Origin: a virus
Reading direction: 5' to 3' (one strand)
Virus record (IMG/VR): IMGVR_UViG_3300031957_002716
Coordinates: 1-23,319 of that record
Length of the DNA stretch: 23,319 bases
The notes under the pieces are model-generated. The model saw only the letters and a program-made list of their open reading frames with translations. It did not search any database and was not told the DNA's origin. Positions 4,817 through 21,918 of the stretch are shown piece by piece (within the stretch, counting starts at the first letter, position 1; each line of letters starts with the position of its first letter). The translations under genes and the position numbers were made by a program.

Positions 4817-4820
4817 CCCC

Positions 4821-4994: not shown

Positions 4995-5001
4995 TGATAG
5001 G

Positions 5002-5018: not shown

Positions 5019-5025
5019 TAACAGG

Positions 5026-5060: not shown

Positions 5061-5066
5061 TGCTAT

Positions 5067-5694: not shown

Positions 5695-5695
5695 G

Positions 5696-6043: not shown

Positions 6044-6048
6044 GAGGT

Positions 6049-8169: not shown

Positions 8170-8173
8170 TGGT

Positions 8174-9169: not shown

Positions 9170-9175
9170 TGTCGT

Positions 9176-9388: not shown

Positions 9389-9407
9389 GGTTCTAGGTAG
9401 GTTCAGG

Positions 9408-9611
9408 TTATCGATGTTGGATTGGTTGAGGGCGAAGCGTTGGGCGCTTAATACCCGGTTGCGCTTTGAGTTGATGACGTCGCGCATGGCTGAATCGTCT
9501 TGCTCGGCTCATGGTTGCGCGTGAAATGAACTCGTAGCCCAAGAGTTCTGACTCCAGAGAGTTTAACTCTGTAAGATTTGCGGCATGGCGGATTCGGTCG
9601 CAGATACTCAT
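9408..9611 (-). CDS. Hypothetical basic small protein
   Basis: A 67-aa protein starting MSICDRIRHAANLTELNSLE. Its N-terminus is helical and its C-terminus very basic (RARRFSHARRHQLKAQPG), suggesting nucleic-acid contact. The same frame is open to 9962 on top of the well-supported membrane protein gene, so only the part from the ATG at 9611 is accepted. It starts four bases after that gene's stop and ends 19 bases before the lipoprotein ATG. Moderate confidence that it is a gene. Confidence 0.5.
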   Translation of the reverse strand: MSICDRIRHAANLTELNSLESELLGYEFISRATMSRARRFSHARRHQLKAQPGIKRPTLRPQPIQHR

Positions 9612-9615
9612 TGTC

Positions 9616-9984
9616 TTAGTTGGAGAAGTTGCTCTCAAGGCCAGCAATCCGAACTTCGGACAGGTAAGCATGGCGAAGAGAATTGCTGTGGAGATCGAGG
9701 TAAACGATGTAACTGCCAGCATCCTCAATGATGCGGACGGCCCGGTATGCTGGGAAGAAATCCGCACCAGAGTCCTGCAAGCGGTAGACATCCTTGGAAT
9801 AGGACGAGGTGACCGGCTCAGGATTGAAGCCCGCGACCGGTGAAGGGCTGGGCAGGATGGCGAAGAGTCCCGTGGTGAAGACTGCGACACCGGCGCAAGC
9901 AAGGCCGATCTTCTGGCGAACGGTAGGCCGAAACTTCGGCTTGATCTCCGTAATGGGTTCAATAATGGCGAGTTCGTTTTTCAT
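9616..9984 (-). CDS. Single-pass membrane protein
   Basis: A 122-aa protein with a cytoplasmic N-terminus (MKNELAIIEPITEIKPKF), one transmembrane helix at about 26-44 (IGLACAGVAVFTTGLFAIL) and an extracytoplasmic domain of about 75 aa with strands (YRAVRIIEDAGSYIVYLDL). It is not recognised. Its size and topology match inner-membrane-anchored periplasmic proteins. It belongs to the group of envelope-targeted early products at 7,637-9,984. Confidence 0.6.
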   Translation of the reverse strand: MKNELAIIEPITEIKPKFRPTVRQKIGLACAGVAVFTTGLFAILPSPSPVAGFNPEPVTSSYSKDVYRLQDSGADFFPAYRAVRIIEDAGSYIVYLDLHSNSLRHAYLSEVRIAGLESNFSN

Positions 9985-10005
9985 GGTTCAGGAACGGTAT
10001 TTAGG

Positions 10006-10308
10006 TTAGTTGGCAAAAATCGCCTCTGCGATCTCGTTACCGAATCCGGTAAGGCGGATCATCTTGACTCGGCGATCACCCTCAAGGTTTCCACGGCGCA
10101 CAAGCTTCTTGCGCTCCAAGGTGTCCACGAGGCCAGTAACCGCCGCCGTGCTGACACCCACTTGCTTAGCAAGCTCGGAAGTCCGAACGGAAGGAGTTGA
10201 CCGGAGAATGCCGACGATTCGAAGCGCCGAGATAGAGGTGATACTGGCTGGAACTGCGCCAAGATTGACGCGGTCGGCCCCGACTGGTTGTTGTTCAATT
10301 GCTGTCAT
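10006..10308 (-). CDS. MarR-like winged-helix transcriptional regulator
   Basis: A 100-aa protein with a winged helix: ALRIVGILRSTPSVRTSELAKQVGVSTAAVTGLVDTLE (28-65) gives the HTH, and KKLVRRGNLEGDRRVKMIRLT (67-87) the wing with the diagnostic DRR of MarR proteins. It is shorter than MarR (about 140 aa) because the dimerising flanking helices are reduced to one short N-terminal and one C-terminal segment. It probably binds a promoter in the phage or host. It is the third gene of the leftward accessory operon. Confidence 0.8.
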   Translation of the reverse strand: MTAIEQQPVGADRVNLGAVPASITSISALRIVGILRSTPSVRTSELAKQVGVSTAAVTGLVDTLERKKLVRRGNLEGDRRVKMIRLTGFGNEIAEAIFAN

Positions 10309-10323
10309 GGCTTTTGAAAGTGG

Positions 10324-10698
10324 TTATTCTGCGTATATCATGAGATCCGGATGCTCGGTCTCGGCCCATGCGGCGATCCAGCCAGATACGTCCGCGCCGC
10401 GCTCTTGTTTGTTAGCCAGGAAGAGCGTTAGTAAATCATGAACCTCGGCTTCTGCGATGGCTTGACCTAGGTCGCCGAACGCATAGCAGTGGCAATCAAG
10501 CTGGGAGAGCTCGAGCGAAAGGTGGTAGCACTCCATGCACCACTTGTATTCATGCCACCCATCCCAGTAACCCTTATGGATGACGTATTTCTCCCCCGGC
10601 TCGATGCGGCCACCGCACTCATAGCAACAGTGCCGTTTTACGGCCTTGCGGAAGTAGTAGTCGTAAACCTCTGGTGGATCGAAGTCGCAGTAACACAT
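10324..10698 (-). CDS. Cysteine-rich putative zinc-binding phage protein
   Basis: A 124-aa protein with a zinc-ribbon-like first half: MCYCDFDPPEVY, then HCCYECGGRIEPGEKYVI, then WCMECYHLS, giving CxC, CCxxC and CxxC pairs around Cys2-4, 24-28 and 54-57, with a further CHC at 69-71. This MCYCD...PPE...CCECG...GEKY layout is common in small proteins of diverse phages and probably binds one zinc. The biochemical role is unknown. Its upstream intergenic gap holds a strong GC-rich hairpin (10720-10747). Confidence 0.75.
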   Translation of the reverse strand: MCYCDFDPPEVYDYYFRKAVKRHCCYECGGRIEPGEKYVIHKGYWDGWHEYKWCMECYHLSLELSQLDCHCYAFGDLGQAIAEAEVHDLLTLFLANKQERGADVSGWIAAWAETEHPDLMIYAE

Positions 10699-10719
10699 GA
10701 TCGTAGTCTTTTGAGAATT

Positions 10720-10747
10720 GCCGGGGCGGCTCTCACCCCGCCCCGGC
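10720..10747. terminator. Perfect 10-bp GC-rich hairpin between two leftward genes
   Basis: GCCGGGGCGG and CCGCCCCGGC form a perfect 10-bp stem with an 8-base loop. It lies in the 71-base gap downstream of the first gene of the leftward accessory block. No T-run follows on the minus strand (it continues AATTCTCAAAAG) or on the plus strand, so it is not a canonical intrinsic terminator. It may attenuate transcription, protect mRNA ends or mark a processing site. Confidence 0.5.
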
Positions 10748-10769
10748 TTCCATGTTCACTCCTCAACAA

Positions 10770-11123
10770 CTACGCTCGCTCTTGCGTAGAAAGGTTCTTG
10801 CAGGCCTCGATCAGGCTGCGTTCAAAGTGTCCACTGAGATCGACAGGAAGCAGGTCAAGCTCCAGCGCGATAAGCTCCAGTGCGTGGAGTGCTGCAAGCT
10901 CAGGCAGCGTGAAAGGTGTTCCTCCGTCGCGACCTTCCACAACGATCTCTCCGGCGAATGGGTAGATGTCCACAGAGGGAATCCATTCACCCCCGGCTTC
11001 ATCCCACATGGTAGCGGAAACAAGGCTCTCGGAGCAGTCCACTTGGACACCAAAGGAGTAATCGCCGCAGCGGTAGCTCTTCCAATCGAATTCGTTTTCA
11101 GTAGGCAGTAAATCGGTTTTCAT
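10770..11123 (-). CDS. Hypothetical acidic protein, first gene of leftward accessory operon
   Basis: A 117-aa acidic protein starting MKTDLLPTENEFDWKSYRCG. The first two thirds are strand-rich (YSFGVQVDCSESLVSATMWD, IPSVDIYPFAGEIVVEGRDG) and end in a Leu-rich helix (LPELAALHALELIALELDLL). It is the first gene after the central control region, so it should be among the earliest leftward products, and acidic early proteins often inhibit or mimic. No family is recognised. A predicted promoter and operator-like palindrome lie at 11145-11175. Confidence 0.65.
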   Translation of the reverse strand: MKTDLLPTENEFDWKSYRCGDYSFGVQVDCSESLVSATMWDEAGGEWIPSVDIYPFAGEIVVEGRDGGTPFTLPELAALHALELIALELDLLPVDLSGHFERSLIEACKNLSTQERA

Positions 11124-11144
11124 TGTCGTCTTTTGGAAACTTAA

Positions 11145-11175
11145 GAAACATAGATGCTATAGTTTCCATGTTCAA
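11145..11175 (-). promoter_or_regulatory. Leftward accessory-operon promoter with overlapping palindrome
   Basis: Read leftward, TTGAAC (11175-11170), a 17-base spacer and TATGTT (11152-11147) form a sigma-70-like promoter about 24 bases before the ATG at 11123. The -10 is covered by a near-palindrome, GAAACATAG-atg-CTATAGTTTC (11145-11166), an apt operator. It lies close to the divergent ribbon-helix-helix genes, whose products are the natural candidates to bind it. Confidence 0.45.
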
Positions 11176-11233
11176 ACAAAAAAGTAGACCTTCTTGTAAT
11201 TTTTGTAATCGAAAAGACCTTGAAAACTGCTAG

Positions 11234-11242
11234 TATTCCGTC
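11234..11242 (+). repeat. TATTCCGTC repeat upstream of first RHH gene
   Basis: The 9-mer TATTCCGTC occurs here and again at 11509-11517, upstream of each of two paralogous ribbon-helix-helix genes. It overlaps a -10-like TAGTAT (11231-11236). Shared upstream boxes of two related regulators could be an autoregulatory operator half-site, or relics of the gene duplication. Confidence 0.35.
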
Positions 11243-11260
11243 CAGTTGACCGCCCTAACA

Positions 11261-11482
11261 ATGCCAAATCAAAAACGCCACGCTGTTACCGTAAAACTGG
11301 ACCAAGCTCAGTATAATGCGCTTAGGAGGATCGCTGCCCGTAGAGGCTCGCTCGTCAGTGCTCTCGCCAGGGAATTCGTTAATGAGAGCCTCTATAACTA
11401 TGACCCGCAGTATAAAGAATACGTCGAAGATCTGATACAGAATGATGGGGCAGATTCTCTAGGGGAAAATACGGATCAGTAG
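11261..11482 (+). CDS. Ribbon-helix-helix (CopG/Arc-like) regulator 1
   Basis: A 73-aa protein starting MPNQKRHAVTVKLDQAQY. The beta strand HAVTVKLD, then helix QAQYNALRRIAARRG, then helix SLVSALAREFVNESLY is the CopG/Arc ribbon-helix-helix pattern; it would dimerise and insert the strand in the DNA major groove. The acidic tail (QNDGADSLGENTD) is not part of the fold. I chose the ATG at 11261; an in-frame TTG at 11246 would add five residues. First rightward gene next to the leftward promoter, so a likely early-switch regulator. It is paralogous to the next gene (see 11570-11782). Confidence 0.7.
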   Translation: MPNQKRHAVTVKLDQAQYNALRRIAARRGSLVSALAREFVNESLYNYDPQYKEYVEDLIQNDGADSLGENTDQ

Positions 11483-11501
11483 GGCTCCGAATTAATTACA
11501 C

Positions 11502-11529
11502 TTGCAACTATTCCGTCACTCGGCATACT
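11502..11529 (+). promoter_or_regulatory. Possible promoter of second RHH gene
   Basis: TTGCAA (11502-11507), a 16-base spacer containing the second TATTCCGTC box, and CATACT (11524-11529) make a plausible sigma-70-type promoter, leaving a leader of about 33 bases before the ATG at 11570. The box sits between the -35 and -10, where a repressor would block polymerase. Confidence 0.3.
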
Positions 11530-11569
11530 CCTTAGCCAATTGTTAGGCAACCCCTGACCTACTTTGGCT

Positions 11570-11782
11570 ATGCACATCAAGCAAACTCTCGGAATCCACC
11601 TCCACATGTGGGCAGCTCTGCGACGATCAGCCCTGCTACGCGGCAGAAAACCGGAGGAAGTAGCACTGGAAATCCTCCATTCTGAACTCTACAAGGCCGA
11701 TCCCGAGTTTCGGAAGTGGGCGAATAGCCAGGATTGGGTGTCAGAAGAGTCTAAAGATTACAATGGTTCCCACCGGGTATAG
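11570..11782 (+). CDS. Ribbon-helix-helix-like protein 2 (paralogue)
   Basis: A 70-aa protein starting MHIKQTLGIHLHMWAALRRS. It aligns with the preceding gene without gaps through the core: ALRR, a shared RG, an acidic position in the second helix, then SELYKADPEFRKW against ESLYNYDPQYKEY. The N-terminal strand (IKQTLGIHL) is less clean than in its neighbour, so DNA binding may be altered or it may form heterodimers. A TTG two codons upstream is also open. Function inferred only from the fold and location. Confidence 0.6.
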   Translation: MHIKQTLGIHLHMWAALRRSALLRGRKPEEVALEILHSELYKADPEFRKWANSQDWVSEESKDYNGSHRV

Positions 11783-11845
11783 AAACCCCGGAATCAAATA
11801 TTTACTTAAGAATTGCAGACCTTTCGCGCTCGCGGATCGTCTAGG

Positions 11846-11950
11846 ATGAACAAAATCATGTGCGTTGCGGCCATCCTTCTAAGCGTAGCAATTGCTGCTC
11901 TCAGCGCCGTAACCGTAGCAAATCAGCTTGCTTTGATCTCGGTCAAGTAG
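11846..11950 (+). CDS. 34-aa hydrophobic micro-protein
   Basis: An ORF starting MNKIMCVAAILLSVAIAALS and ending NQLALISVK: one hydrophobic helix (4-24), like a membrane micro-protein or bare signal peptide. Its last 28 bases overlap the 3' end of the convergent DUF2637-like gene. The ribosome site is poor (AGG directly before the ATG). It fills most of the 140-base gap after the second RHH gene; the rest of that gap (11783-11845) shows no clear terminator. A tentative gene. Confidence 0.35.
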   Translation: MNKIMCVAAILLSVAIAALSAVTVANQLALISVK

Positions 11951-12507
11951 CGCCGGACGGTCTTTTCGTTGCGCCGGACAATCTGCGCAATCTCGGTCAC
12001 GGTCTTGCCCATCTTGTGCAGCTCCGCGACCTTGTCGAGAATCGCCTTCTTGGTTTTCTCAGCGCTGGACATCTTGCGTGTTGCTGCGGCCACCTTCTTG
12101 TCCGTCATCAGGTGCCATATGTTCACCATGTGCATGAGGATCTTGAGCGCGATTGCCAAGGACGATGGCGGCACCGCATGGACAAGGACGCCGAGCCAGG
12201 TTGAGGACATCGCAGCTTCATGTCCGTTCGCGACGTTCAGGACAATGGACAGCGCCGTGAACAGGACAATCAGCGCGACATAGGGCCAGACGTGCGCCTT
12301 GGCGCGCATGGAACAGTAGGCCCCAATCATGGACATCACAATCACGCCGTCGATGGATAACGGGAACGACCATGCCGGGGACAAATGGTAAGCCTCGCCC
12401 AGTTCCGCAAGGACACGGAACGACTGCGCAAAGGAACAGACAGCAATCAGGATAGCGACCGAAATAAGTCCGGCACCTGCGACGATTAGAGAACGGTCAG
12501 ACTTCAT
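11923..12507 (-). CDS. DUF2637-like four-TM protein with C-terminal HTH
   Basis: A 194-aa integral membrane protein. Four TM helices lie at about 7-28, 46-65, 73-95 and 104-124. The second begins AWSFPLSIDGVIVMSMIG and the third ends SIVLNVANGHE, the W-x-x-P-L-x-x-D-G and N-V-A signatures of DUF2637, a family known mainly from actinobacterial mobile elements (SpdB-type transfer or spread proteins). Residues 148-190 add a soluble helix and an HTH (MGKTVTEIAQIVRRNEKTV, then RRYL) that can bind DNA. It is divergent from terS, with the TGTCC repeat array between. A membrane-tethered DNA-binding protein is the direct reading; its job is unknown. Confidence 0.7.
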   Translation of the reverse strand: MKSDRSLIVAGAGLISVAILIAVCSFAQSFRVLAELGEAYHLSPAWSFPLSIDGVIVMSMIGAYCSMRAKAHVWPYVALIVLFTALSIVLNVANGHEAAMSSTWLGVLVHAVPPSSLAIALKILMHMVNIWHLMTDKKVAAATRKMSSAEKTKKAILDKVAELHKMGKTVTEIAQIVRRNEKTVRRYLTEIKAS

Positions 12508-12534
12508 GGTATTAGCCTAAGGTTGCCCCTAAAA

Positions 12535-12672
12535 TGTCCGGGCACAACAAGGACAGGGGACAAGAAGAATGTCCGGCACGATGTCCGGTAGCGTGTCCCT
12601 AAAATGTCCGGAACCATGTCCGGGTGAATGTCCACCTTGTTGTCCGTATCGATGTCCGGTTATATAGTCCGG
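12535..12672 (+). repeat. TGTCC(GG) repeat array with 12-base period
   Basis: TGTCC starts at 12535, 12570, 12582, 12594, 12605, 12617, 12629, 12641 and 12653; the last eight are spaced 12,12,11,12,12,12,12. Most read ATGTCCGG. A degenerate AGTCCGG follows at 12666, and two inverted copies (GGACA) lie at 12551 and 12558. The intervening bases are not conserved, so this is an array of binding sites, not a tandem duplication. It fills the gap between the DUF2637-like gene and terS and contains the terS promoter. Candidates are a packaging (pac/cos-binding) site for the terminase small subunit, iterons, or operator sites for the adjacent HTH protein. Confidence 0.85.
12640..12668 (+). promoter_or_regulatory. 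terS promoter inside the repeat array
   Basis: TTGTCC (12640-12645), a 17-base spacer and TATAGT (12663-12668, one mismatch from TATAAT) form a good sigma-70-type promoter. Its -35 is itself one of the TGTCC repeats, and two more repeat units fall in the spacer and -10. The ATG (12677) is eight bases after the -10, so the start of transcription should be at or next to the A of ATG: a leaderless message. Confidence 0.55.
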
Positions 12673-12676
12673 AACA

Positions 12677-13126
12677 ATGGCGAAAGATTCTGACGATTTA
12701 CCCGATGATTTGCGGGAATTGTTCCTGTCCCTGAAGATGCAGCACCAGGAATTTGCGCTGCATATTCTCGATGGAAAAACGCAGGTTGACGCTTATATGC
12801 TCGCGTATCCAAGCGCGTCCAAAGATACCGCAATGCGACAGTCCTCGCGTCTCATGATTAAGCATGAGGGCGTTGTCTCTTTCATCCGGGCATACCAGGA
12901 CAAAGTGTTCCGGACAAGGCACGCGTCCTTTGATAAGAAGCGTTCCAAGTTGAATGACATCATGGATGATCCTGCGTCGGACTATGCTGCGGTCATTGCG
13001 GCGATTCGTGAGGACAACAGAATGACCGGCGACGAGAAGCCCGTGAAGATAGAACTGTCCGTTGAAGACAGGCTCTATGAAGCGATCACGAACGGTTGCG
13101 CTCCTGGGCTTCCGCTATCACAATAG
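12677..13126 (+). CDS. terS: Terminase small subunit
   Basis: A 149-aa protein that should recognise phage DNA and start packaging. The N-terminus (KMQHQEFALHILDGKTQVDAY, then MLAYPSASKDTAMRQSSRLM, then VVSFIRAYQDKV) matches the HTH domain of terminase small subunits, where GKTQVDAYMLAYP...TAMRQSSRLM replaces the usual N-A-T-Q-A-A-x-x-A-G-Y form (about 21-73). The rest is a helical oligomerisation region and an acidic C-terminal stretch typical of the part that contacts the large subunit. It is separated from terL by about 5 kb. The TGTCC array directly upstream is a natural DNA-binding target for it. Confidence 0.8.
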   Translation: MAKDSDDLPDDLRELFLSLKMQHQEFALHILDGKTQVDAYMLAYPSASKDTAMRQSSRLMIKHEGVVSFIRAYQDKVFRTRHASFDKKRSKLNDIMDDPASDYAAVIAAIREDNRMTGDEKPVKIELSVEDRLYEAITNGCAPGLPLSQ

Positions 13127-13130
13127 GCAC

Positions 13131-13391
13131 ATGACAAGCAAAGAGAAGGCTGCCGTAATCCTTGATCGCATCAATGACCTTATTAAGGATCATGTATCTC
13201 AACCCGCCACGCTTTCATGGGTCAGTTACCCGGAAACCCTTGTGATTCATGTTTGCCCGAAGGGGTGCAGAGACCTGGAATACCGCTATGCGTCTCTAGA
13301 CGTGGTGGATAGCGTAGAGGATGCAATCCAGGTGGGGTCCAACTTCGCAAACCTCGCACTGAGGGCGATATCGAAGCTGTCCAACGCGTGA
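13131..13391 (+). CDS. Hypothetical protein
   Basis: An 86-aa protein starting MTSKEKAAVILDRINDLIKD. A helix is followed by strands (TLSWVSYPETLVIHVCP), a short Cys-containing loop (CPKGCRDLEYRY) and a C-terminal helix (AIQVGSNFANLALRAI). The frame is open upstream into terS, but the ATG at 13131, four bases after the terS stop, is preferred. The last base of its TGA is the first base of the ACCGTGTTGCG element. Function unknown; probably co-expressed with terS. Confidence 0.6.
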   Translation: MTSKEKAAVILDRINDLIKDHVSQPATLSWVSYPETLVIHVCPKGCRDLEYRYASLDVVDSVEDAIQVGSNFANLALRAISKLSNA

Positions 13392-13424
13392 CCGTGTTGC
13401 GCTAGGTCGTCGCGAGGATACTAT
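13391..13424 (+). promoter_or_regulatory. Rightward ACCGTGTTGCG promoter of the tail-fibre unit
   Basis: ACCGTGTTGCG (13391-13401) supplies TTGCGC (13397-13402); a 16-base spacer leads to TACTAT (13419-13424). Only five bases separate the -10 from the ATG at 13430, so there is no room for a Shine-Dalgarno and the transcript should be leaderless or start almost at the A. Confidence 0.6.
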
Positions 13425-13429
13425 CTTGC

Positions 13430-14593
13430 ATGGCCGTTTCCAGCGACACCAACCAAACCTCCGGCGTTCTCACAACGAAGCCGCAGGTTTTCGCGATCAA
13501 CTTTCAGTTCTATGTCTCCAGTGACTTGGTTGTGGTCGTGACTGACCAGAACACGCTGATTGACACCACGCTGACGATCTCCACGCACTACACGGTTTCG
13601 GGCGGCTCAGGCTCAACCGGGACTGTCACAATCCTGGATACAAGCGCTGTTGCGACAGGGGATACGATCACGATCTATCGCAGCATCCCTTACACGCAGG
13701 AACTGGAGCTAGAGGAAGGCGGGCCGCTTTCAGCTGCTGCACTGGAGGAACGCTTGGACAGAGGATTGATTCAGTTGCTCCAGGTGAAGTCGCAACTCGA
13801 CCGCTGCCTACGACTCGGCGAAACCTCACAGCAACCGGCAGCAGGGGATATCAAGGATCTTACGAGTAAGTTCCTGGCCTTTAACGAGCTCGATCAGCTC
13901 ACCGGTTACACTGCCGCGCAGATGGCCGCAGCGCTTAACCTGGCTCTGGCTGCTGATGTGTTCGCCTCGCACACGTTCGCTGATGACGCTGCGCGCGCGG
14001 CTGACACGCCGGATCGCATTGGGCAACTCGGCTGGCAACTGGATACGCTAACGCTCTATCACGCCACGGGAACGAACGTGGGGAACTGGTCTGTGGTTCA
14101 GGTGGACACAGCAAGCATTGTAGATCTCGCCATCGAAACCGCCAAGATTGCTGCGCTCGCAGTCACCACGGCCAAGATCGCCGCGAACGCCGTCACGCTA
14201 GGCAAGCTCGAGTCAGACCTTCAGACGTTCGAGGTGCAAATCAACATCGGCGCGAACGACGTGAATCTCGAGACTGGCAACGGCCAAGCCTACTGGTATC
14301 CGAACTTCGACGGCATCATCACTGGCGTTCGCGCACGGTTCCCAGAGCAGGGGCCGACCGGGCAGGCCGCAAGCTTCCAGATGAACGTGGACGGCAACGA
14401 CGCGCTCTCAACCGCCTTGACCGTGGATGCAGGCGAGGATGATTCAGATGACGCAGCAACGCCCGCAGTGATCGACACCGATTACGATGATCTCGTGGGC
14501 GGCACGTCTGTTGTTCGTATTGACGTGGATCAAGTCGGTAGCACGCTCTCCGGCGAACTGGTCTGCATCACCATCTCAGGAGTTCTTGTCTGA
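13430..14593 (+). CDS. Tail fibre protein with T7 gp17-like N-terminus
   Basis: A 387-aa virion protein. Residues 1-130 (TTKPQVFAINFQFYVSSDLV, then TLTISTHYTVSGGSGSTGTV, then YRSIPYTQELELEEGGPLSA, then ALEERLDRGLIQLLQ) match the T7 gp17 N-terminal domain that anchors fibres to podoviral tails. A shaft follows, including the degenerate repeat TAKIAALAVTTAKIAANAV (about 239-257), typical of trimeric phage fibres. The C-terminal about 120 aa are strand-rich and acidic (ALTVDAGEDDSDDAATPA) and probably form a small tip or jelly-roll domain. There is no lyase or esterase motif. It overlaps the LamG-like protein gene by one base, so the receptor-binding role may be shared. Confidence 0.85.
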   Translation: MAVSSDTNQTSGVLTTKPQVFAINFQFYVSSDLVVVVTDQNTLIDTTLTISTHYTVSGGSGSTGTVTILDTSAVATGDTITIYRSIPYTQELELEEGGPLSAAALEERLDRGLIQLLQVKSQLDRCLRLGETSQQPAAGDIKDLTSKFLAFNELDQLTGYTAAQMAAALNLALAADVFASHTFADDAARAADTPDRIGQLGWQLDTLTLYHATGTNVGNWSVVQVDTASIVDLAIETAKIAALAVTTAKIAANAVTLGKLESDLQTFEVQINIGANDVNLETGNGQAYWYPNFDGIITGVRARFPEQGPTGQAASFQMNVDGNDALSTALTVDAGEDDSDDAATPAVIDTDYDDLVGGTSVVRIDVDQVGSTLSGELVCITISGVLV

Positions 14594-15288
14594 TGAGCAG
14601 AGGCCCGAAGAAGATCGAGTATATCAACTCGCCAGTCCCGTTCAGCCCATTACACCTTCCGGGCTTCGATTTCTGGCTGGACTCATTCGATGCCAACAAC
14701 ATCCTTGAAGGCACCGGCCCTGATGATCCGGCAGAGAACGGTGACGCGGTAATCCTGTGGCGTGATCGCGGGCCGAACGCTCGGGAGTTCACGTTCAGCA
14801 ACGCGACCTACGACACAAGCGGCGCAATACCGCACCTGGATCTTGCTAGCGCAATTCCGCACAGCACAATCACGAATCCGCTCGGGGCCACGGCATCGAT
14901 CTTTCTGGTCTACCAGTCCAACGATGGCGAATACACGGCAGGGGTGGGCGATGCGGTCGGCGAAGTGATCGGATGGTCGAGCAATACTGCGCCTGGCTCC
15001 GGATCGGCGGTTGGCTGCGGGTCGCCAACAGTGTTCTGGAATTCAACCTCAGTGCCGACTCGGGGTGAACTCCGCACGGCCTCCAATGGGAACTTCGGCG
15101 TGCTCTCGATCATTGGCGCTGATTTCTCTTCGTGGTCTGCTCTCCGACTCTGGTCACGTGACGTAGGGGCAGCGCATGCCAGCATGCAGTTCGACGGACC
15201 TGCCTACGCGGCTATCGGCTGCAATTCAGCAATCAGCGCCGCACAAAGAGCGCAACTCGTGGCCTATTTGCTTGATCGCTATTCGTGA
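14593..15288 (+). CDS. LamG/concanavalin-like receptor-binding protein
   Basis: A 231-aa protein with a single LamG-type jelly-roll domain. The signatures are PGFDFWLDSFDANNILEG (about 23-40), AVILWRDRGPNAREFTFSN (a W-x-D-x-G turn) and the C-terminal AISAAQRAQLVAYLLDRY, the usual end of phage LamG proteins. Such domains bind glycans. Its ATG overlaps the tail-fibre stop (TGATG at 14591-14595), so the two proteins are made together, suggesting a two-part adhesin that attaches to the fibre tip. A carbohydrate receptor is inferred from the fold only. Confidence 0.7.
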   Translation: MSRGPKKIEYINSPVPFSPLHLPGFDFWLDSFDANNILEGTGPDDPAENGDAVILWRDRGPNAREFTFSNATYDTSGAIPHLDLASAIPHSTITNPLGATASIFLVYQSNDGEYTAGVGDAVGEVIGWSSNTAPGSGSAVGCGSPTVFWNSTSVPTRGELRTASNGNFGVLSIIGADFSSWSALRLWSRDVGAAHASMQFDGPAYAAIGCNSAISAAQRAQLVAYLLDRYS

Positions 15289-15304
15289 TGTGGCACGGTC
15301 AGGC

Positions 15305-15448
15305 ATGACCATTGAGATCGGCAGTCACACGACCACGTTCTACGCTGGCGACATGCTCTTGCTTGGCCTGCTATGGCTTCTGCTGATGATCCTGTTTGTT
15401 GGGATCGTTCGAGCGATTCGCGCTGAGCACGCCAAGAAGCCTCGCTAG
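15305..15448 (+). CDS. Small single-TM protein, possible holin
   Basis: A 47-aa protein: a short N-terminal segment (MTIEIGSHTTTFYAGD), one TM helix (MLLLGLLWLLLMILFVGIV, 17-35) and a basic C-terminus (RAIRAEHAKKPR). The topology fits a T7 gp17.5-like type II holin, or an accessory lysis membrane protein. A longer frame from 15176 overlaps the LamG gene, so the ATG at 15305 is used. Its TAG overlaps the stop of the convergent gene at 15445. Lysis function is inferred. Confidence 0.55.
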   Translation: MTIEIGSHTTTFYAGDMLLLGLLWLLLMILFVGIVRAIRAEHAKKPR

Positions 15449-15822
15449 TTCGTCAAGAACAGGTCGTCCTTGCGCTCAAGCGCCTTGAAGTGCTTTCGCG
15501 GGTGCTGCCCGAACTCGCTTTCAAGAAGGAGCATGTTGGCAGCATCCAGTAGGTGCTCCGTGTTTCCGGTCGCCTTGTATTTGTCGATCTCTCCGGCCAG
15601 TCGGCCAAGATAATCGTAAGCGGCCATTGTGTTGCGCTCTCGACCATATCGAAGCGCACCCATCACAAGGCGATTCACCATGCCCTCAACGAAGCGCTTA
15701 CCCGGAAGTTCGCGTTCGATCTTGCGCAGAATTGCTTGCGCATCCCCCTTGAACCTGGATTCAGGCCAGCCAATGCCAGCACGGAGTTCCAGCCGTTGTC
15801 TCATCCATTCTGTGTTTGTCAT
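15445..15822 (-). CDS. Hypothetical phage protein in reversed cassette
   Basis: A 125-aa helical protein starting MTNTEWMRQRLELRAGIGWP. The final part EIDKYKATGNTEHLLDAANMLLLESEFGQHPRKHF (about 77-112) carries the Y-x-x-T-G-N-x-E-H-L-x-D-A-A-N motif of a widespread phage protein family of unknown function, often annotated near MazG-like nucleotide hydrolases. Its His/Glu/Asp pattern hints at metal binding but that is not shown. ATGA overlap with the phosphoesterase gene; its stop abuts the convergent plus-strand gene. Confidence 0.65.
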   Translation of the reverse strand: MTNTEWMRQRLELRAGIGWPESRFKGDAQAILRKIERELPGKRFVEGMVNRLVMGALRYGRERNTMAAYDYLGRLAGEIDKYKATGNTEHLLDAANMLLLESEFGQHPRKHFKALERKDDLFLTN

Positions 15823-16838
15823 GAGTAGATTCCGCCAGTCTTGGAGATCTCGAGGTTATCCACCTTGAAAGCCCCAGTCTCGGGGCATGTGATCTCGACC
15901 ACGGCAAACCCGTGGTTCCATTCGTTGTAGATCCGGTAATCAGGCGTCAGGTTGCAGAGACAGCCCGTTGTCCATGCCCGTGACACGTTGCCAAGCAAGT
16001 CTTTCACTGGCGGCGTTGCGCTGGCCTTGTGATGATGCGAGCCGAGAACGGTGGTTCGCGCCTTGAGTTGCAGGCCGCGAGCGGGGGAGACGGCGGAGCT
16101 TGTTTGGATCTCGTGACCGTGGATGATGGAGAGTTGACCGAACTGCACGCGCTGTGCGTCGCCAATCTCTGTGATGCCGAGTTTATCCAGGCCAAGGACA
16201 TTGCCAAGGCTGAGGCATTCAAGGTCGAGCAGTTCCGGCGCTTTGAGCTTCAGGTATCGTTCGTATCGGTCCTCGTGATTGCCTGACTTGAAATAGATTC
16301 GAGCACCAGGAAGGAATCGCTGCATGACCTCCAGCACGGTGCGGATTTGCTCAAGTTCATACTTGAAGGCGCGTTGTCTTGGGTCGCGTTCCCATCGGCT
16401 GATGTTGTAGAAGTCGCAGAGGTCGCCGTTGAGCAGCACCGCGTCAACTCCGGCGTCGGTGCCGTATTCGATAGCTGCCGCCAGCGCCCTCTTATCATGG
16501 AAGGGACCATGGATGTCTCCGAGCACAAGCAAGCGTTCAGCGCTGATGCGATAAGGCCGCGAATCCTTCAGGTCTTGCCACGGTTCCGGCAGGGCGTCGA
16601 ACACCTTTCCAGGCATGACGTTCGGTCGGAAGTGCTCTTGCGTTGCTGCATCCTTACGGTGCAACTCTCCGTTGTTTCCTCGATAGCGGCGCACCATGCT
16701 TCGGCACGCTTCATATCTTGGCCAGAGTTCGGGCGACTTCGTGTAGAGCTTCTTCGCGAGTGTCGCCGTGGGTGTGTTTGGAAAGCGCTTCAATTCGCGC
16801 TTCACTGCTTCCGCCGCAGGGGAGATGGTTCGAGCCAT
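15819..16838 (-). CDS. Metallophosphoesterase with N-terminal helical domain
   Basis: A 339-aa calcineurin-like phosphoesterase. The dinuclear metal site is complete: GDIH (107-110), NGDL (137-140, Asp139), GNHED (186-190), HGHE (240-243) and GSHHH (266-270). The N-terminal about 60 aa (MARTISPAAEAVKRELKRFP, TLAKKLYTKSPELWPRYEAC, ending VRRYRGNNG) form a helical domain seen before such phosphatases in other phages. The substrate is unknown: nucleic acid, nucleotide or signalling molecule are all possible. A minus-strand gene inside the late rightward operon, it may be expressed on its own schedule; TACTAT at 16857-16862 (minus) is a possible -10. The longer TTG start is rejected. Confidence 0.85.
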   Translation of the reverse strand: MARTISPAAEAVKRELKRFPNTPTATLAKKLYTKSPELWPRYEACRSMVRRYRGNNGELHRKDAATQEHFRPNVMPGKVFDALPEPWQDLKDSRPYRISAERLLVLGDIHGPFHDKRALAAAIEYGTDAGVDAVLLNGDLCDFYNISRWERDPRQRAFKYELEQIRTVLEVMQRFLPGARIYFKSGNHEDRYERYLKLKAPELLDLECLSLGNVLGLDKLGITEIGDAQRVQFGQLSIIHGHEIQTSSAVSPARGLQLKARTTVLGSHHHKASATPPVKDLLGNVSRAWTTGCLCNLTPDYRIYNEWNHGFAVVEITCPETGAFKVDNLEISKTGGIYS

Positions 16839-16870
16839 GCTTGAGGGTAAGGGCAAATAGTACTAGGGCA

Positions 16871-16904
16871 ACCGTGTTGCGTCACAGCATCCTGTAGGGA
16901 ATCT
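16871..16904 (+). promoter_or_regulatory. Rightward ACCGTGTTGCG promoter of the Tad2-like gene
   Basis: ACCGTGTTGCG (16871-16881) gives TTGCGT (16877-16882), a 16-base spacer and GAATCT (16899-16904). The ATG at 16912 is seven bases after the -10. It lies between the divergent phosphoesterase and Tad2-like genes, with a leftward -10 candidate (TACTAT, 16862-16857) nearby, so the region may drive both. Confidence 0.55.
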
Positions 16905-16911
16905 TTGCAGG

Positions 16912-17232
16912 ATGGAGATTGATCAAACTAATCAAACATTCGGAGCAGCCCTTGAGGCGCTTAAGGCAGGGAAGAAGATTGCACGCGATGGCTGGAACGG
17001 GAAAGGCATGTTTCTGTTCCTGCTCCCGGCTGGCCAAGTGCCTAAATCCGCCATTCATGACCCAGGCTTGCGGGCCGTTATAGACAGTGAGGTGGAAGGG
17101 GATACTTTTGAGGCTCTTGGAACTATCCGTATGTGGACAACAAACAGCTCTGGTCGGCGAGCAGTGTTAACTGGATGGCTTGCATCGCAGACTGATATGC
17201 TGAGCGAGGACTGGGTTATCTACAAAGACTGA
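16912..17232 (+). CDS. tad2: DUF2829 / Tad2-like anti-Thoeris protein
   Basis: A 106-aa protein of the DUF2829 family, shown in phages to be Tad2, which captures the cyclic ADP-ribose signal made by the bacterial Thoeris defence and so blocks abortive infection. The signatures are present in order: TFGAALEALKAGKKIARDGW (9-28) with W-N-G-K-G-M-F-L-F-L, a central loop, then GWLASQTDMLSEDWVIY (88-104). The W-x-A-S-Q-T-D-x-L-x-E-D-W ending is strongly conserved in the family. Function here is by homology; ligand binding is not shown. It has its own promoter, as expected for a counter-defence gene, and is followed by the lysis-like membrane genes. Confidence 0.8.
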   Translation: MEIDQTNQTFGAALEALKAGKKIARDGWNGKGMFLFLLPAGQVPKSAIHDPGLRAVIDSEVEGDTFEALGTIRMWTTNSSGRRAVLTGWLASQTDMLSEDWVIYKD

Positions 17233-17266
17233 CCGTGTTGCGCTTGCGATCTCTTGCCCTGAATAT
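17232..17266 (+). promoter_or_regulatory. Rightward ACCGTGTTGCG promoter of the membrane/terL unit
   Basis: ACCGTGTTGCG (17232-17242) gives TTGCGC (17238-17243); a 17-base spacer leads to GAATAT (17261-17266). The ATG at 17272 is five bases further on, again with no room for a ribosome site. The element begins on the last base of the preceding gene's TGA, as at 13391. Confidence 0.6.
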
Positions 17267-17271
17267 GGGTC

Positions 17272-17535
17272 ATGAGAAAGCTTATCAATGAACTCGGTGG
17301 CCGGAAGTTTCTTGCTGGCGTCCTTGCTGGCCTTGGCGGAACTGCCGCTGTTGCTATTGAGCAGTTCGCTAGCGGCGCTGTTTCCACAGGCAGCATCAAG
17401 GGCGGCATTGCTGCTCTGATCGTCTTCATTATCATGGAAGGCGCTGCGGACATTAAGAGTCGTGCAAAGAACAGCGATTCCGACATCGCCAAGCAGGTGA
17501 TCGACGAACTGGAGAAGCGCGCCGAGGGCAAGTAA
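17272..17535 (+). CDS. Two-TM membrane protein, candidate holin
   Basis: An 87-aa protein with two hydrophobic helices: KFLAGVLAGLGGTAAVAIEQ (12-31, Gly/Ala-rich) and GGIAALIVFIIMEGAADI (44-61), and a charged C-terminal tail (KQVIDELEKRAEGK). Length and topology match phage holins and related small lysis membrane proteins. It is directly followed (TAA-ATG, no gap) by a coiled-coil membrane protein gene, as in lysis cassettes, but no endolysin is in the window. Holin identity is inferred. Confidence 0.6.
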   Translation: MRKLINELGGRKFLAGVLAGLGGTAAVAIEQFASGAVSTGSIKGGIAALIVFIIMEGAADIKSRAKNSDSDIAKQVIDELEKRAEGK

Positions 17536-17922
17536 ATGTCGGGTTCTCAATCCTCATCTAAGCGCACACCAGCCAGCAATGCCAATGCTCGGCTCGACGT
17601 GTTGGAGAAGTCCGTTGAGCGACTGTCTGATGACTTCGACGCGTTCAAGTCCGGCATGTTCGGGCGCTTAGATGAACTGACACGGGCGGTAACAGGGATC
17701 ACGGCAGGGGCGGGCCGAGTAGCTTGGAAGGAAGTAGCCACACTGGTTTCCATTCTCGTGATCGGCGCAGGCTGCATTGGCGTCTATGTCGAGCTGAAGC
17801 TTGAGGTAATGCGCGTTCAGATGGAAAACCGGGACGACCGCATAACCGACCTCGAAGCCCGCGTTGAAGAGATTGACAATTACGGTTCACGTCGTTGGAC
17901 CACTCAACCTGCAAACAAATGA
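17536..17922 (+). CDS. Coiled-coil single-TM protein, possible spanin or lysis accessory
   Basis: A 128-aa protein with a Ser-rich N-terminus, a coiled coil (ARLDVLEKSVERLSDDFDAF, about 18-52), one TM helix (VATLVSILVIGAGCIGVYVE, 67-86) and a second coiled coil (LKLEVMRVQMENRDDRITDL, 87-106, continuing to about 114). The TM-plus-coiled-coil layout recalls i-spanins (Rz) and phage DUF1640-like membrane proteins, but the long coiled coil before the TM is unusual for Rz. The next gene overlaps its TGA by four bases. Confidence 0.55.
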   Translation: MSGSQSSSKRTPASNANARLDVLEKSVERLSDDFDAFKSGMFGRLDELTRAVTGITAGAGRVAWKEVATLVSILVIGAGCIGVYVELKLEVMRVQMENRDDRITDLEARVEEIDNYGSRRWTTQPANK

Positions 17923-18101
17923 CAGCGATCGCACTAGCCAGACTGCCCGAGAAACGCATAAGCGCTGCACGAATGGTTGGCGGTAGCGCGTGCCGTAGTT
18001 GGTCCAACGGAAAGCCTTGGGTCACCTACAACTTCATCCAAGCCACTGACTCTGGCTTCTATCATTACCCGGTGTCATACCGGCCCAGTCGCCACGATTG
18101 A
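17919..18101 (+). CDS. Hypothetical protein upstream of terL
   Basis: A 60-aa basic protein starting MTAIALARLPEKRISAARMV. The second half (SWSNGKPWVTYNFIQATDSG, ending FYHYPVSYRPSRHD) is aromatic-rich and strand-like. The start overlaps the previous TGA (ATGA, 17919-17922), and its TGA overlaps the terL ATG (TGATG, 18099-18103), so it is coupled to both. No known family. Its position suggests a virion or packaging role, without proof. Confidence 0.6.
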   Translation: MTAIALARLPEKRISAARMVGGSACRSWSNGKPWVTYNFIQATDSGFYHYPVSYRPSRHD

Positions 18102-19648
18102 TGAGTAAGCTTGCCGAGCTTCTACGCGATGAGAAGTGGAGGCTGTGGAACCTCTACCAAGTCAAGCCCAAGATCGGGCAACCCGTGCATTTCGTTCCGA
18201 ACGTGATGCAAGAGAAGTTCCTCTATGACATCCACTGGAAGAACATCATCGTTAAGTCTCGCCAGATCGGGTTCTCTACGCTTACGGCGGTCCTGTTCCT
18301 TGATCGCATGTTGTTCGTTCCGCACACCAAGGCGGGTATCATCGACTTCTCTCTGCCGGACGCAGCTGAGAAGCTGAACAAGATCAAGTTCGCTTACGAG
18401 TCCATTGGTAAATCACTTGGCGGGCAAGCAGGGGAAGAGATGAACGCGCTTATCCATCGCATGGTTCCGCTGACCAAGTGCAATGAGAAAACGATGGAGT
18501 GGGCGAACGGTTCTCGAATCCGCGTAGGAACTACGCTTCGAGGTGACACACTCCAGCTTCTTCACGTGTCCGAGTTCGGAAAGATCGCCAACGAGCCAGG
18601 CGACCGGGACAGAGACATTATCGATGGCGCGTTGCCTGCTGCTGAAGAGGCGCTGGTCATCTTCGAATCAACCCACGAAGGCGGCAAGGTCGGCGAGCAT
18701 TACAAGATGGCGACCGATGCCCTTGAGAACCCAGAACCACGCCGGGAAGATTTCAAACTTCAGTTCTATGCGTGGTGGCAAGATCCGAAGTGCCGGATTG
18801 AACACAGCACGCCGCGACCGGACGACATCCAGCGCCGATATTACGCCGAGCTTGAGGAGCGGGGGATTGTGCTGGATGACGCGCAGAAAGCCTTTCACCT
18901 CGCCAAGTGGAAGCGTCACGGGTTCGCTGTGTTCAAGGAATACCCCAGCACGCTGGAGGACGCGTGGCGTGCACCGTTGAGCGGCGCTTACTACGGCGAG
19001 CAAATGGCAAGCCTTCGCGCCAAGGGCAGGATTCACGAGTTCGAGCATGAGCGCTACCCGGTGCATTGCTTCTGGGATATTGGCCAATCAGACTCAACGG
19101 CTATCTGGGCGGTTCAGTTGGTCGGCCCTGAAATCTGGTGGATCGACTGGTATGAGAACGAAGGGGAGACGCCAGCGCATTATGCTGGGGTAGTGCGGGA
19201 GTGGGCATCACGCTATCCAATCGCGACACACTTCCTGCCGCATGACGCAGGATACGCGACGTCGGTTGGCTGGTCCTATCAGAAGGCGCTGAAAGATTGC
19301 GGCGTGACGAATACTGTGGTGCTGCCACGAACAACCGACATTAGCCTTGGTATCAACGAGCTTCGCGAACTGCTCAAGCGGTCACGCTTCCACGTCCGTT
19401 GCGCAGGAACGCGCATAGTAGACGGCGAAGAGAAAGTGGGTGGCGTCGGCCACCTTGAACTGTATCGTAAGCACGAGAACAAGGCAGGCGCGACACTACG
19501 GGAAAGGCCCGTTCACGACGAGCATTCCCACTCAGCCGATGCCGCAAGATACTTCGCTGAGGCTTATGCGCTAGGCATGGTGGGTCGAGAGTTCACGGCT
19601 AAGCCAAGACGCCCCAGGAGAGGCGGCGACACCATCCTTGCGGTGTAG
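18101..19648 (+). CDS. terL: Terminase large subunit
   Basis: A 515-aa packaging motor and nuclease. The ATPase shows a Walker A variant KSRQIGFST (52-60), Walker B region LLHVSEFG (153-160, catalytic Glu158) and motif III FEST (188-191). The C-terminal RNase H-like nuclease has the three expected acidic positions: FWDIGQSDSTAIW (Asp326), PHDAG (Asp382) and HDEHSHSADAARYF (Asp480). Length is normal for phage terminases. All motifs look intact. The ATG at 18101 overlaps the upstream TGA; the TTG one codon earlier is not needed. It lies upstream of the portal and scaffold-like genes, as in many podoviruses. Confidence 0.95.
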   Translation: MSKLAELLRDEKWRLWNLYQVKPKIGQPVHFVPNVMQEKFLYDIHWKNIIVKSRQIGFSTLTAVLFLDRMLFVPHTKAGIIDFSLPDAAEKLNKIKFAYESIGKSLGGQAGEEMNALIHRMVPLTKCNEKTMEWANGSRIRVGTTLRGDTLQLLHVSEFGKIANEPGDRDRDIIDGALPAAEEALVIFESTHEGGKVGEHYKMATDALENPEPRREDFKLQFYAWWQDPKCRIEHSTPRPDDIQRRYYAELEERGIVLDDAQKAFHLAKWKRHGFAVFKEYPSTLEDAWRAPLSGAYYGEQMASLRAKGRIHEFEHERYPVHCFWDIGQSDSTAIWAVQLVGPEIWWIDWYENEGETPAHYAGVVREWASRYPIATHFLPHDAGYATSVGWSYQKALKDCGVTNTVVLPRTTDISLGINELRELLKRSRFHVRCAGTRIVDGEEKVGGVGHLELYRKHENKAGATLRERPVHDEHSHSADAARYFAEAYALGMVGREFTAKPRRPRRGGDTILAV

Positions 19649-19663
19649 CGAATTTGCAGTTGG

Positions 19664-19691
19664 TTGCGCGTGTTTGCGCTTCCTGCATAGT
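19664..19691 (+). promoter_or_regulatory. TTGCGC-type promoter after terL
   Basis: TTGCGC (19664-19669), a 16-base spacer and CATAGT (19686-19691), with the ATG six bases later at 19698, repeat the geometry of the ACCGTGTTGCG promoters, although the ACCGTG part is not kept (it reads AGTTGG). This is the only appreciable gap in the packaging/head operon, which supports a promoter. Confidence 0.4.
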
Positions 19692-19697
19692 AGACCC

Positions 19698-20018
19698 ATG
19701 CGGACGAAAGGCACACGAGAGAAACCTGCTATCCAGCAAGCAGAGCAATCTATCCAACAAGCGCAATCGGTCGCTAGCGTTGCGCCACCCGTTATCAACA
19801 ACGTGGTGCAGCAACCCAAGATGCCGAACTTCAACATTCCGTCTATCCCGCGTGCGCCGCAAGCACCGGAACCGGCTGAGCCTGCCACGCAATATATCGA
19901 CGAGACGGATCAAGAGGGCAGCGTGAATGGTCGTCGTCGCCGTCGTCGCACTGGCATGGCTCGCACTGTTCAAGCTGGCGAGACTGGCGGTTACAAGAAG
20001 TCTGACACCTTGGGTTAA
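19698..20018 (+). CDS. Pro/Gln-rich protein between terL and portal
   Basis: A 106-aa probably disordered protein: a Gln/Ala-rich helix (QQAEQSIQQAQSVASVAPP), a Pro-rich centre (FNIPSIPRAPQAPEPAEP) and a C-terminal six-Arg tract (NGRRRRRRTGMARTVQAGET) coded by repeated CGTCGTCGC units. Small proteins with a Pro-rich body and a terminal R/G segment are often found beside the portal in podoviruses and are virion-associated in some. Its own role is unknown. A longer frame from 19638 is rejected since it lacks a start near the promoter. Confidence 0.6.
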   Translation: MRTKGTREKPAIQQAEQSIQQAQSVASVAPPVINNVVQQPKMPNFNIPSIPRAPQAPEPAEPATQYIDETDQEGSVNGRRRRRRTGMARTVQAGETGGYKKSDTLG

Positions 20019-20284
20019 TGAGCAAGCTATCGGTAGAACGAAAGGCCACGGTCACGATCAAGATCAAAGGCCAGGAAATCGAATTGTCCGAACAGGAAGC
20101 TAAGGAGTTGCGTGACTCGCTGAGCGCAGCCCTGGCCGACTCCGGCCTATGGGATTTTATGCGCTTACAGAGGGCGTTGAAGGAAGCGCAACCGGCTGAG
20201 CGATTCATTCCGCTCCCATACCCCGTTAACCCGCCTCCTTACCCGCAGCCCTGGTGGTCGCAGGAGGTAATCGTTACGTGCTAA
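20018..20284 (+). CDS. Hypothetical protein upstream of portal
   Basis: An 88-aa protein starting MSKLSVERKATVTIKIKGQE. A strand-strand-helix core (IKIKGQEIELSEQEAKELRD, then SLSAALAD) resembles small phage proteins with an IELTxxEAxxLxxxL motif. The C-terminus is Pro/Tyr-rich (FIPLPYPVNPPPYPQPWW). It begins in a TAATG overlap (20016-20020), and its 3' end holds the AGGAGG site for the portal gene. Function unknown. Confidence 0.65.
   Translation: MSKLSVERKATVTIKIKGQEIELSEQEAKELRDSLSAALADSGLWDFMRLQRALKEAQPAERFIPLPYPVNPPPYPQPWWSQEVIVTC
20262..20267 (+). promoter_or_regulatory. Strong ribosome binding site of the portal gene
   Basis: AGGAGG lies inside the 3' end of the preceding gene, ten bases before the GTG at 20278 and 16 before the ATG at 20284. 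It is the cleanest Shine-Dalgarno in the window and decides for the GTG start. It also shows that the host uses Shine-Dalgarno initiation, which makes its absence at the leaderless promoters meaningful. Confidence 0.7.
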
Positions 20285-21918
20285 TGAAGACCGGCAAGGA
20301 AATACTCGACCACTACGACAAGCTCAAGACCGCCCGTGATCCGTGGATCAACGATTGGCGCGAGCTTGCCGAGTATATCCAGCCTGCTAAGGCGCAGAAG
20401 ATCCAAGACCGCGCCACCTCTGGAGAAACGCCAGATAACACGCCTTTCCGCCGTCTCTATGATACGACCGGCGTCATGGCCAACATGACCCTTGCTCGTG
20501 GTCAGCTTGCATGGATGACGCCACGGGAAACGCCGTGGTTTGAACTTGCTCCCGGCCCGGAAGTTCCGATGGCCGAGAATGATGAAGGGGCTAAGGACTG
20601 GTGCGCTGATTCATCCGACAAGATGCGGATTGCTCTGGCCAAGTCGAACTTCTACAACGAGATCCACGAGGTTTACCTGGATCGCGGGTGCTTCGGCACG
20701 GCCTGCTTGTTCATCGACTGGGACGACAAGCGCCAGCAGTTGTTCTTCAAGGCTTACCAAGTCGGCACGTTCGTTTGTTCCGAAGACTCTCAGGGCTACA
20801 TCGACACGGTGGGATGCGAGCACATCTGGAGTCACCGGCAAGCGTATCAGGAATTCGGCGAGGAACTGCCGGAGAAGATTCTCAAGTGCGCCAAAGACCC
20901 GAAGAAGTGGAACGAGACTGCTCGGTATATCCACATGGTTTACCCTCGCGAAGACGGCGAGAGGGCAGGCATGAAGTCCAAGTTCACCATGCCTTACGCT
21001 TCGGTATGGGTGGAATGCGAAAGCGGCAAGGTGCTCGATGAAGGCGGCTTTGAGGAAATGCCGTATCTGGTGACGCGCTTTGGTCGCTGGAGCCGCTACG
21101 GCGACAGTGAAAGCCCTTACGGCTACTCGCCCGCAATGTTGGCCTTGCCGGATATCAAGCAGACGAATCGCCTGGAAGGTCAACTGGACGCGGTGGTGGC
21201 CCTCAAGGTGAATCCTCGTTACCTGGTGACAGACGCCATGGACGGGCAAGTTGACTGGCGCGAAGGCGGTCGCACGATCTGGAATCCCGAGCTTGGCGAC
21301 ATGCATGAGCCGAAGACCTGGGGAGACCCCGGTGACGTTCGCCAGGGCCTTGAGCGTGCGCAGCAGAAGCGCGAGCGCATCAACGACTGTTTCATGGTTG
21401 GCCTGTTCCAGATGTTCGCGCAGATGGATGACCGGCAACGCACGGCGATGGAGATTCGTGCGCGGCTTGACGAGAAGATTGACCAGTTCTCACCGACCTT
21501 TGACCTGTTGCAAGAAGACCTGCTTGAGCCAGGCGTTTCTCGCATCTTCCGCCTACTGCTTCGCCACGGTCAGTTTGATCCGATTCCGGAAGTGATGACG
21601 GTCAACAACATGCTGTCGGAGCCGAAGGTTGAGTTCAACTCACGGATTGCTCTGGCGATCAAAGCCACGAAGGACAGCGGTGCACTGATGACCTTCGAGC
21701 AAATCGCGCAGCTTACGCAGATGGCTCCCGATGTATTCCTTCCGGTGTTCGACAACTTCAAGCCGGACGTAGCAGCACGAACCCTTTTCCGGCACTCAAG
21801 CGGAGATCACGAGTGGATGCGTGAACAAGGGCAGGAAGATGACCGGACAGTTGAGGAAGTGCGAGCCGAGCGTGCACAACAGCAGATGCTTGCGGCTCAA
21901 GCGCAGATGATGCAATGA
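20278..21918 (+). CDS. Portal / head-tail connector protein (T7 gp8-like)
   Basis: A 546-aa protein of the podoviral head-tail connector family, the dodecameric ring through which DNA is packaged and ejected. Recognisable segments are TARDPWINDWRELAEYIQPA near the N-terminus, RLYDTTGVMANMTLARGQLA, YLDRGCFGTACLFIDWDD, and the C-terminal MEIRARLDEKIDQFSPTFDL, matching T7 gp8-type portals (about 530-550 aa). I chose the GTG at 20278, ten bases after AGGAGG (20262-20267); the ATG at 20284, which forms a TAATG overlap with the previous stop, is the alternative but is 16 bases from the site. The 3' end overlaps the next gene as ATGA. Confidence 0.95.
   Translation: MLMKTGKEILDHYDKLKTARDPWINDWRELAEYIQPAKAQKIQDRATSGETPDNTPFRRLYDTTGVMANMTLARGQLAWMTPRETPWFELAPGPEVPMAENDEGAKDWCADSSDKMRIALAKSNFYNEIHEVYLDRGCFGTACLFIDWDDKRQQLFFKAYQVGTFVCSEDSQGYIDTVGCEHIWSHRQAYQEFGEELPEKILKCAKDPKKWNETARYIHMVYPREDGERAGMKSKFTMPYASVWVECESGKVLDEGGFEEMPYLVTRFGRWSRYGDSESPYGYSPAMLALPDIKQTNRLEGQLDAVVALKVNPRYLVTDAMDGQVDWREGGRTIWNPELGDMHEPKTWGDPGDVRQGLERAQQKRERINDCFMVGLFQMFAQMDDRQRTAMEIRARLDEKIDQFSPTFDLLQEDLLEPGVSRIFRLLLRHGQFDPIPEVMTVNNMLSEPKVEFNSRIALAIKATKDSGALMTFEQIAQLTQMAPDVFLPVFDNFKPDVAARTLFRHSSGDHEWMREQGQEDDRTVEEVRAERAQQQMLAAQAQMMQ

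Follow-up and report, generated by a model that had tools for sequence, protein, structure and literature searches.

The 23,319-base IMG/VR virus record IMGVR_UViG_3300031957_002716, which is not part of a larger contig and was analyzed at its full length (the window), carries exactly four exact copies of the 11-mer ACCGTGTTGCG, at 5050-5060 on the minus strand and at 13391-13401, 16871-16881, and 17232-17242 on the plus strand, as the initial annotation of this DNA had reported. All four copies lie at gene borders and in the orientation of the downstream gene. We consider it probable that ACCGTGTTGCG is a phage-specific regulatory site in four promoters, that is, an operator at about -37 that overlaps the -35 elements of leaderless sigma-70-type promoters and serves one putative regulator. 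The earlier suggestion of a promoter-associated element that links leftward replication with rightward fiber, Tad2-like, and lysis/packaging units was also supported.

No other 11-mer of the window is as frequent as ACCGTGTTGCG, of which no copy occurred in any of 100 dinucleotide shuffles. The repeat taken alone is only moderately rare. About 0.01 copies had originally been given as the expectation for a random 11-mer, but a four-copy 11-mer is less rare than that figure implies, since at least four copies of some 11-mer arose in 9 of 300 order-2 Markov simulations run as a look-elsewhere control. It is the placement of ACCGTGTTGCG that lifts it above chance. Noncoding DNA makes up 7.0% of the window, and at least 10 of the 11 bases are noncoding in 4/4 copies, for which the chance is 1.7e-5 (0.064^4). 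The copies had been described as always intergenic, which holds for 5050 and 16871 and fails by one base at 13391 and 17232, where the first A of the word doubles as the final base of the TGA stop of the upstream gene. When two mismatches were allowed, only chance-level extras were found in the window (10 seen, 7.9 expected). A chance or hitch-hiking repeat, for example a promoter copied alongside cargo genes as they were inserted, without selection for regulator binding, would be in keeping with the simulations and with the finding that three of the four copies flank cargo-type genes (fiber, Tad2-like). We regard this as very unlikely given the noncoding placement, the constant distance to a -10-like hexamer (and, for three copies, to an ATG), and the flanks beyond the word, which differ among the copies, contrary to recent copying.

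The copies at 5050 and 16871 make up the right-hand portion of a perfect 5-3-5 palindrome, GCAAC-CGT-GTTGC (5051-5063 and 16868-16880), which was found nowhere else in the window even with one mismatch allowed. The left arm reads GTGAC at the 13391 copy and CTGAC at the 17232 copy (two and three mismatches to GCAAC, respectively), and in both cases it overlaps the upstream TGA stop. The asymmetry of ACCGTGTTGCG may thus reflect a trade-off with the coding sequence, and this overlap may explain why the right 11 bases alone are invariant. The -35 hexamer TTGCGy (a 3/6 match) falls in the right arm, GTTGC. The initial annotation had viewed the element as a -35 combined with an upstream ACCGTG box; a -35 with adjacent conserved bases is indeed present, but the box is not separate, as ACCGTG covers the left and central portions of the palindrome, the -35 being supplied by its right arm.

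The -10-like hexamer previously noted 16-17 nt after TTGCGy was found at 4/4 sites, with spacers of 17 (TACACT), 16 (TACTAT), 16 (GAATCT), and 17 nt (GAATAT) for the 5050, 13391, 16871, and 17232 copies, respectively. The pattern KANNNT occurs at spacer 16 or 17 in all four, compared to 6.1% of noncoding anchors, giving a chance of about 1.4e-5 that is qualified by the pattern having been picked post hoc, after the sites were inspected. The hexamers are of the A2/T6 type and match TATAAT at 4, 4, 2, and 3 of 6 positions. The gap between the end of the -10 and the following ATG (13430, 16912, and 17272) is 5, 7, and 5 nt, respectively, at the three plus-strand sites, and the palindrome centers lie 36, 38, and 37 bp upstream of the same codons; the word itself is 28-30 nt from the ATG at these three sites and 55 nt at the fourth. 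The 5- to 7-nt distance leads us to predict leaderless messages at the three plus sites. We infer that the host RNA polymerase would read these promoters, with starts at the ATG or a few bases before it at three of the four sites. Across the window, TANNNT lies at -14 to -11 in 4 of 40 starts, compared to 0.9 to 1.8 expected; two of these starts (13430 and 16838) are beside ACCGTGTTGCG, and two (12507 and 12677) are beside a second repeat array.

Copy 1 supplies the -35-like TTGCGC (5049-5054) that precedes the -10-like TACACT (5026-5031), all on the minus strand. The first gene of the unit downstream (4821-4994, minus) encodes a 57-aa HTH_17/MerR-type DNA-binding protein, and the unit also holds genes for a DnaD-like helicase loader (3962-4816) and a DnaB helicase (2628-3965). 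On the plus strand, copy 2 overlaps TTGCGC at 13397-13402 and is followed by TACTAT at 13419-13424, 5 nt before the start of the gene for a tail fiber with a T7-fiber-like N-terminus (13430-14593; phrog_1640, 5.4e-17). Copy 3 and its palindrome lie between divergent genes. Rightward, TTGCGT (16877-16882) and a weak GAATCT (16899-16904; alternatively AATCTT at spacer 17) precede the gene for a Tad2-like (Thoeris anti-defense) protein (16912-17232; PF11195, 2e-20), which has its own copy of the element. Leftward, the opposite arm of the palindrome gives TTGCCC (16866-16871), a 16-nt spacer, TACCCT (16844-16849), and, 5 nt on, the ATG at 16838 of a minus-strand gene for a calcineurin-like metallophosphoesterase (15819-16838; the listed TTG at 16856 shares the frame of this ATG), for which a leaderless message is likewise predicted. 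One palindrome would thus sit between two back-to-back -35s, each arm acting as one of them. Copy 4 begins within the TGA of the Tad2-like gene, and its TTGCGC (17238-17243) and GAATAT (17261-17266) precede a plus-strand unit (17272-23149) that opens with a small unassigned protein, holin-like by appearance only, and includes the large terminase (18098-19648), a T7-type portal (20254-21918), and a scaffold-position protein (22268-23149).

In the mechanism we favor, the replication, fiber, metallophosphoesterase/Tad2, and lysis/packaging units would be switched in concert by one dimeric phage regulator occupying a site at about -37. Textbook cases of control include phage operators that overlap -35 elements, and since a dimer at this position would exclude sigma from the -35, we slightly favor a repressor that blocks the -35 as the most likely form of the regulator. 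An activator of weak promoters would be the less likely form. The activator put forward in the initial annotation is possible, but a site whose center lies at -36 to -38, over the -35, would fit a repressor no less well. An activator could still be accommodated, as the promoters are weak and the genes are a mixture of middle and late ones. Taken as an alternative in its own right, a phage activator would be recruited to four weak middle/late promoters that are silent without it, and the conserved bases beyond TTG would belong to the activator. The weakness of both the TTGCGy and the -10s is in keeping with this, as are the location of the sites ahead of the helicase, fiber, lysis, and packaging units, with no word where the leftward cluster apparently begins (11123), and the HTH_17 gene directly downstream of one site. 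A center on the -35 itself is, however, an awkward position for a dimer that contacts sigma, no activator was identified among the candidate proteins of the window, and the presence of portal relatives on chromosome-sized contigs fits repression in a lysogen. We therefore hold an activator site to be a possible but distinctly less likely explanation than a shared repressor operator.

Several findings weigh against a common operator in four promoters. The dyad symmetry is perfect at 2/4 sites only, and GAATCT and GAATAT are poor -10s. A plain consensus promoter scan of positions 1-20000 listed none of the four sites, and it found no general excess of promoter-like sites (8 vs 10.2 in shuffles). 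The 5050 promoter would not be leaderless, its ATG at 4994 being 31 nt past the -10, with a leader of about 24 nt predicted. No regulator could be tied to the site among the candidate DNA-binding proteins, which are the HTH_17 protein, a MarR-like protein (10006-10308), a weakly RHH-like protein (11246-11482), and a DUF2637-HTH protein (11923-12507). A scan of IMG/VR for the word with the spacing, hexamer, and ATG returned 11 contigs with one match each, none homologous to the window. Finally, the start-associated repeated words of two related lineages differ in sequence and are not -35s, so that the family offers no direct precedent.

Three of the features described above, namely the asymmetric invariant core, the short gaps with overlap of stop codons, and the orientation aligned with transcription, recall the stoperators of cluster A mycobacteriophages, in which case the word would be an asymmetric repressor site halting elongation as well as initiation. 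The report on L5 and TipsytheTRex (PMC9283540) describes operators/stoperators as short repeated sites in promoter regions and short intergenic gaps, oriented in correlation with transcription. The same source gives more than 20 copies of a 13-mer in L5, bound by a monomer, compared to four copies in the 23.3 kb of a possibly partial record here; the present site is also partly palindromic and tied to -35/-10 spacing, and the likeness is one of features. With two copies being perfect palindromes, -10s at fixed spacing, and one site between divergent genes where no elongation would arrive, a stoperator-like roadblock appears unlikely. The T7-type portal and fiber N-terminus, together with a short invariant word upstream of genes, could also suggest that ACCGTGTTGCG is the core of promoters for a phage-encoded single-subunit RNA polymerase, and the record, which stops after the scaffold-position gene, is probably incomplete. 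Conservation nonetheless ends at 12 bp, two copies are palindromic, and host-type -10s lie downstream. No PF00940 match was found in the window and 15 related records, though the same search matched no control genome either. We consider such a polymerase highly improbable.

Judged by its tail fiber, portal, and terminase, the phage is podovirus-like. The best genome matches of the portal were metagenome-assembled genomes (MAGs) of Verrucomicrobiota, at 38% identity at best in that search, and portal relatives were present in 40 of 387 genomes of this phylum, in 67 of 336 of one order, and in 7 of 213 of another order, these three samples overlapping. The T7-type portal family is common in Verrucomicrobiota, sometimes with several members per genome in the order with 67/336. 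Several relatives lie on contigs of millions of bases and are therefore probably prophages. The nearest named phage by the metallophosphoesterase is Verrucomicrobia phage P8625, at 39%. From the relatives of the portal protein, we infer a host within Verrucomicrobiota. An actinobacterial host, considered on the basis of the DUF2637 domain, a 51-bp helicase match to an actinophage, and the leaderless spacing, was dropped after the portal and metallophosphoesterase relatives were examined.

In 779 upstream regions of portal-relative loci, TANNNT was in excess at -15 to -11, with 57 hits compared to typically 3-8 per position further upstream, and the same peak was seen in an earlier, overlapping set of 522 regions. 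TTG lies 16-18 bp before TANNNT (-14 to -11) in 11 of 47 regions, with approximately 2.5 expected from the remaining regions. In Akkermansia muciniphila, Cappable-seq assigned 10% of starts as leaderless (PMC4782308). The putative phage promoters thus look like a promoter type used in the host phylum. Given this leaderless signature and the Akkermansia starts, an altered sigma factor, as had first been suggested, is not needed; there was no positive evidence for one, and TTG-16/18-TANNNT leaderless promoters already exist in Verrucomicrobiota loci. The Akkermansia promoters share with those proposed here a -35/-10 with a start at or beside the ATG and come from the phylum of the presumed host, but they are general host promoters, whereas the palindromic word is specific to the phage record studied here.

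ACCGTGTTGCG is not a host-wide word. The word with its spacing and hexamer was not clearly enriched in Verrucomicrobiota genomes (5/145 vs 2/145 for the reversed control), and the word alone was absent from all homologous loci examined; the 18 loci holding it had been fetched by the word itself. In the literature the 11-mer appears in six papers, which were judged by titles to concern unrelated primers or sequences. The available relatives are distant. Searches of IMG/VR, GTDB genomes, and the phage collection turned up no relative above 41% identity, a value reached by the portal; a portal scan of IMG/VR gave three loci at 28-29% identity, and the closest in a portal alignment scan was 35% among the best 80 of 558 matches. 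No terminase relatives were found in IMG/VR. Relatives of the metallophosphoesterase were at 33-39% identity and those of the helicase at 23-34%, and the closest relative of the fiber, at 39%, covers only part of the protein.

Repeated noncoding 11-mers in 5 of 32 related stretches (G268, G454, G495, G006, and G007) beat all 60 controls, which is a lower bound, as the mask missed G016 and the fourth copy of the window. The repeats of G454, G495, and G268 look like longer host-type repeats. The 12-mer GGTTTAGTCAAA has nine copies in 39.7 kb of G007 and eight in 31.0 kb of G006, in both orientations, and several copies are within 30 nt of start codons; its loci are L099/L100 (record G007, joined coordinates 2043 to 37419) and also L022, L023, L024, L028, and L101/L102. 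In L105 (G016), a phage region of a Verrucomicrobia MAG, TTTTGACTGATACC has five copies (4243, 5939, 7637, 9603, and 13122), mostly at gene borders, and one of these adjoins a tRNA-Met gene (13035-13105). Both words were rejected as -35 elements: an ATG often follows 2-30 nt on without a -10, and GGTTTAGTCAAA occurs in both orientations. These repeats hint that private start-associated words recur in this phage family, where they may do something other than serve as -35s. A broader proposal, which we regard as doubtful, is that one regulator acting on one palindromic word in the -35s of leaderless promoters, and so coordinating replication, host adhesion, anti-defense, and lysis/packaging, would define the first regulon described for this widespread Verrucomicrobiota (pro)phage family, and that regulator and word diverged together among lineages into separate immunity/activation groups.

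The kind of element is already known. Lambda CI/Cro-type operators are likewise odd-length palindromes over -35s that are common to several promoters, including one divergent pair. They differ in being tandem 17-bp operators, compared to the single 13-bp site per promoter here, and in the present case the sites are spread over replication, fiber, and packaging units and the repressor is only putative. Start-Associated Sequences of cluster K mycobacteriophages, as described in PMC3203893, are also short words private to a phage group that lie upstream of starts and sometimes touch the upstream stop. They are located 3-7 bp from the start codon and have an AGGAG that pairs with 16S rRNA, in contrast to ACCGTGTTGCG, which at three sites is farther upstream and lacks an AGGAG/Shine-Dalgarno sequence. 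New here are the palindrome containing the word, the predicted leaderless starts, the putative back-to-back promoters at 16871, and the proposed Verrucomicrobiota host.

Gene control in phages of Verrucomicrobiota, a phylum that includes the gut bacterium Akkermansia, is hardly described, and nothing on point was found among the literature matches listed. If real, the element would lend itself to a reporter assay, help in tracking down the regulator, and provide a clear-cut example of leaderless phage promoters under regulation. Although the word is not widespread, the design may be, given that 67/336 genomes of one verrucomicrobial order carry portal relatives.

The second repeat array of the window comprises TGTCC(GG) units, many of them 12 bp apart, at 12535-12675 between the divergent DUF2637-HTH gene and a terminase-small-like gene (12677-13126). 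TANNNT lies at -12 and -14 of the two adjoining ATGs, so that these repeats may constitute another set of operators next to leaderless promoters. Scans of the window for tRNA genes and Rfam families gave no matches. A Shine-Dalgarno sequence was not seen before the apparent starts of most leftward genes (1-11123, minus). The minus-strand helicase (3965) and Erf-like (7640) genes have a common upstream stretch, CATCAAGAGC, directly before the ATG, and the 14-mer CATCAAGAGCATGA occurs twice. Another 14-mer, GAACCGCGAAGGAA, occurs three times within the DnaD-like loader gene (4411-4535, minus), where the protein reads KEPQKNHQGTAKEPQKNREGT.

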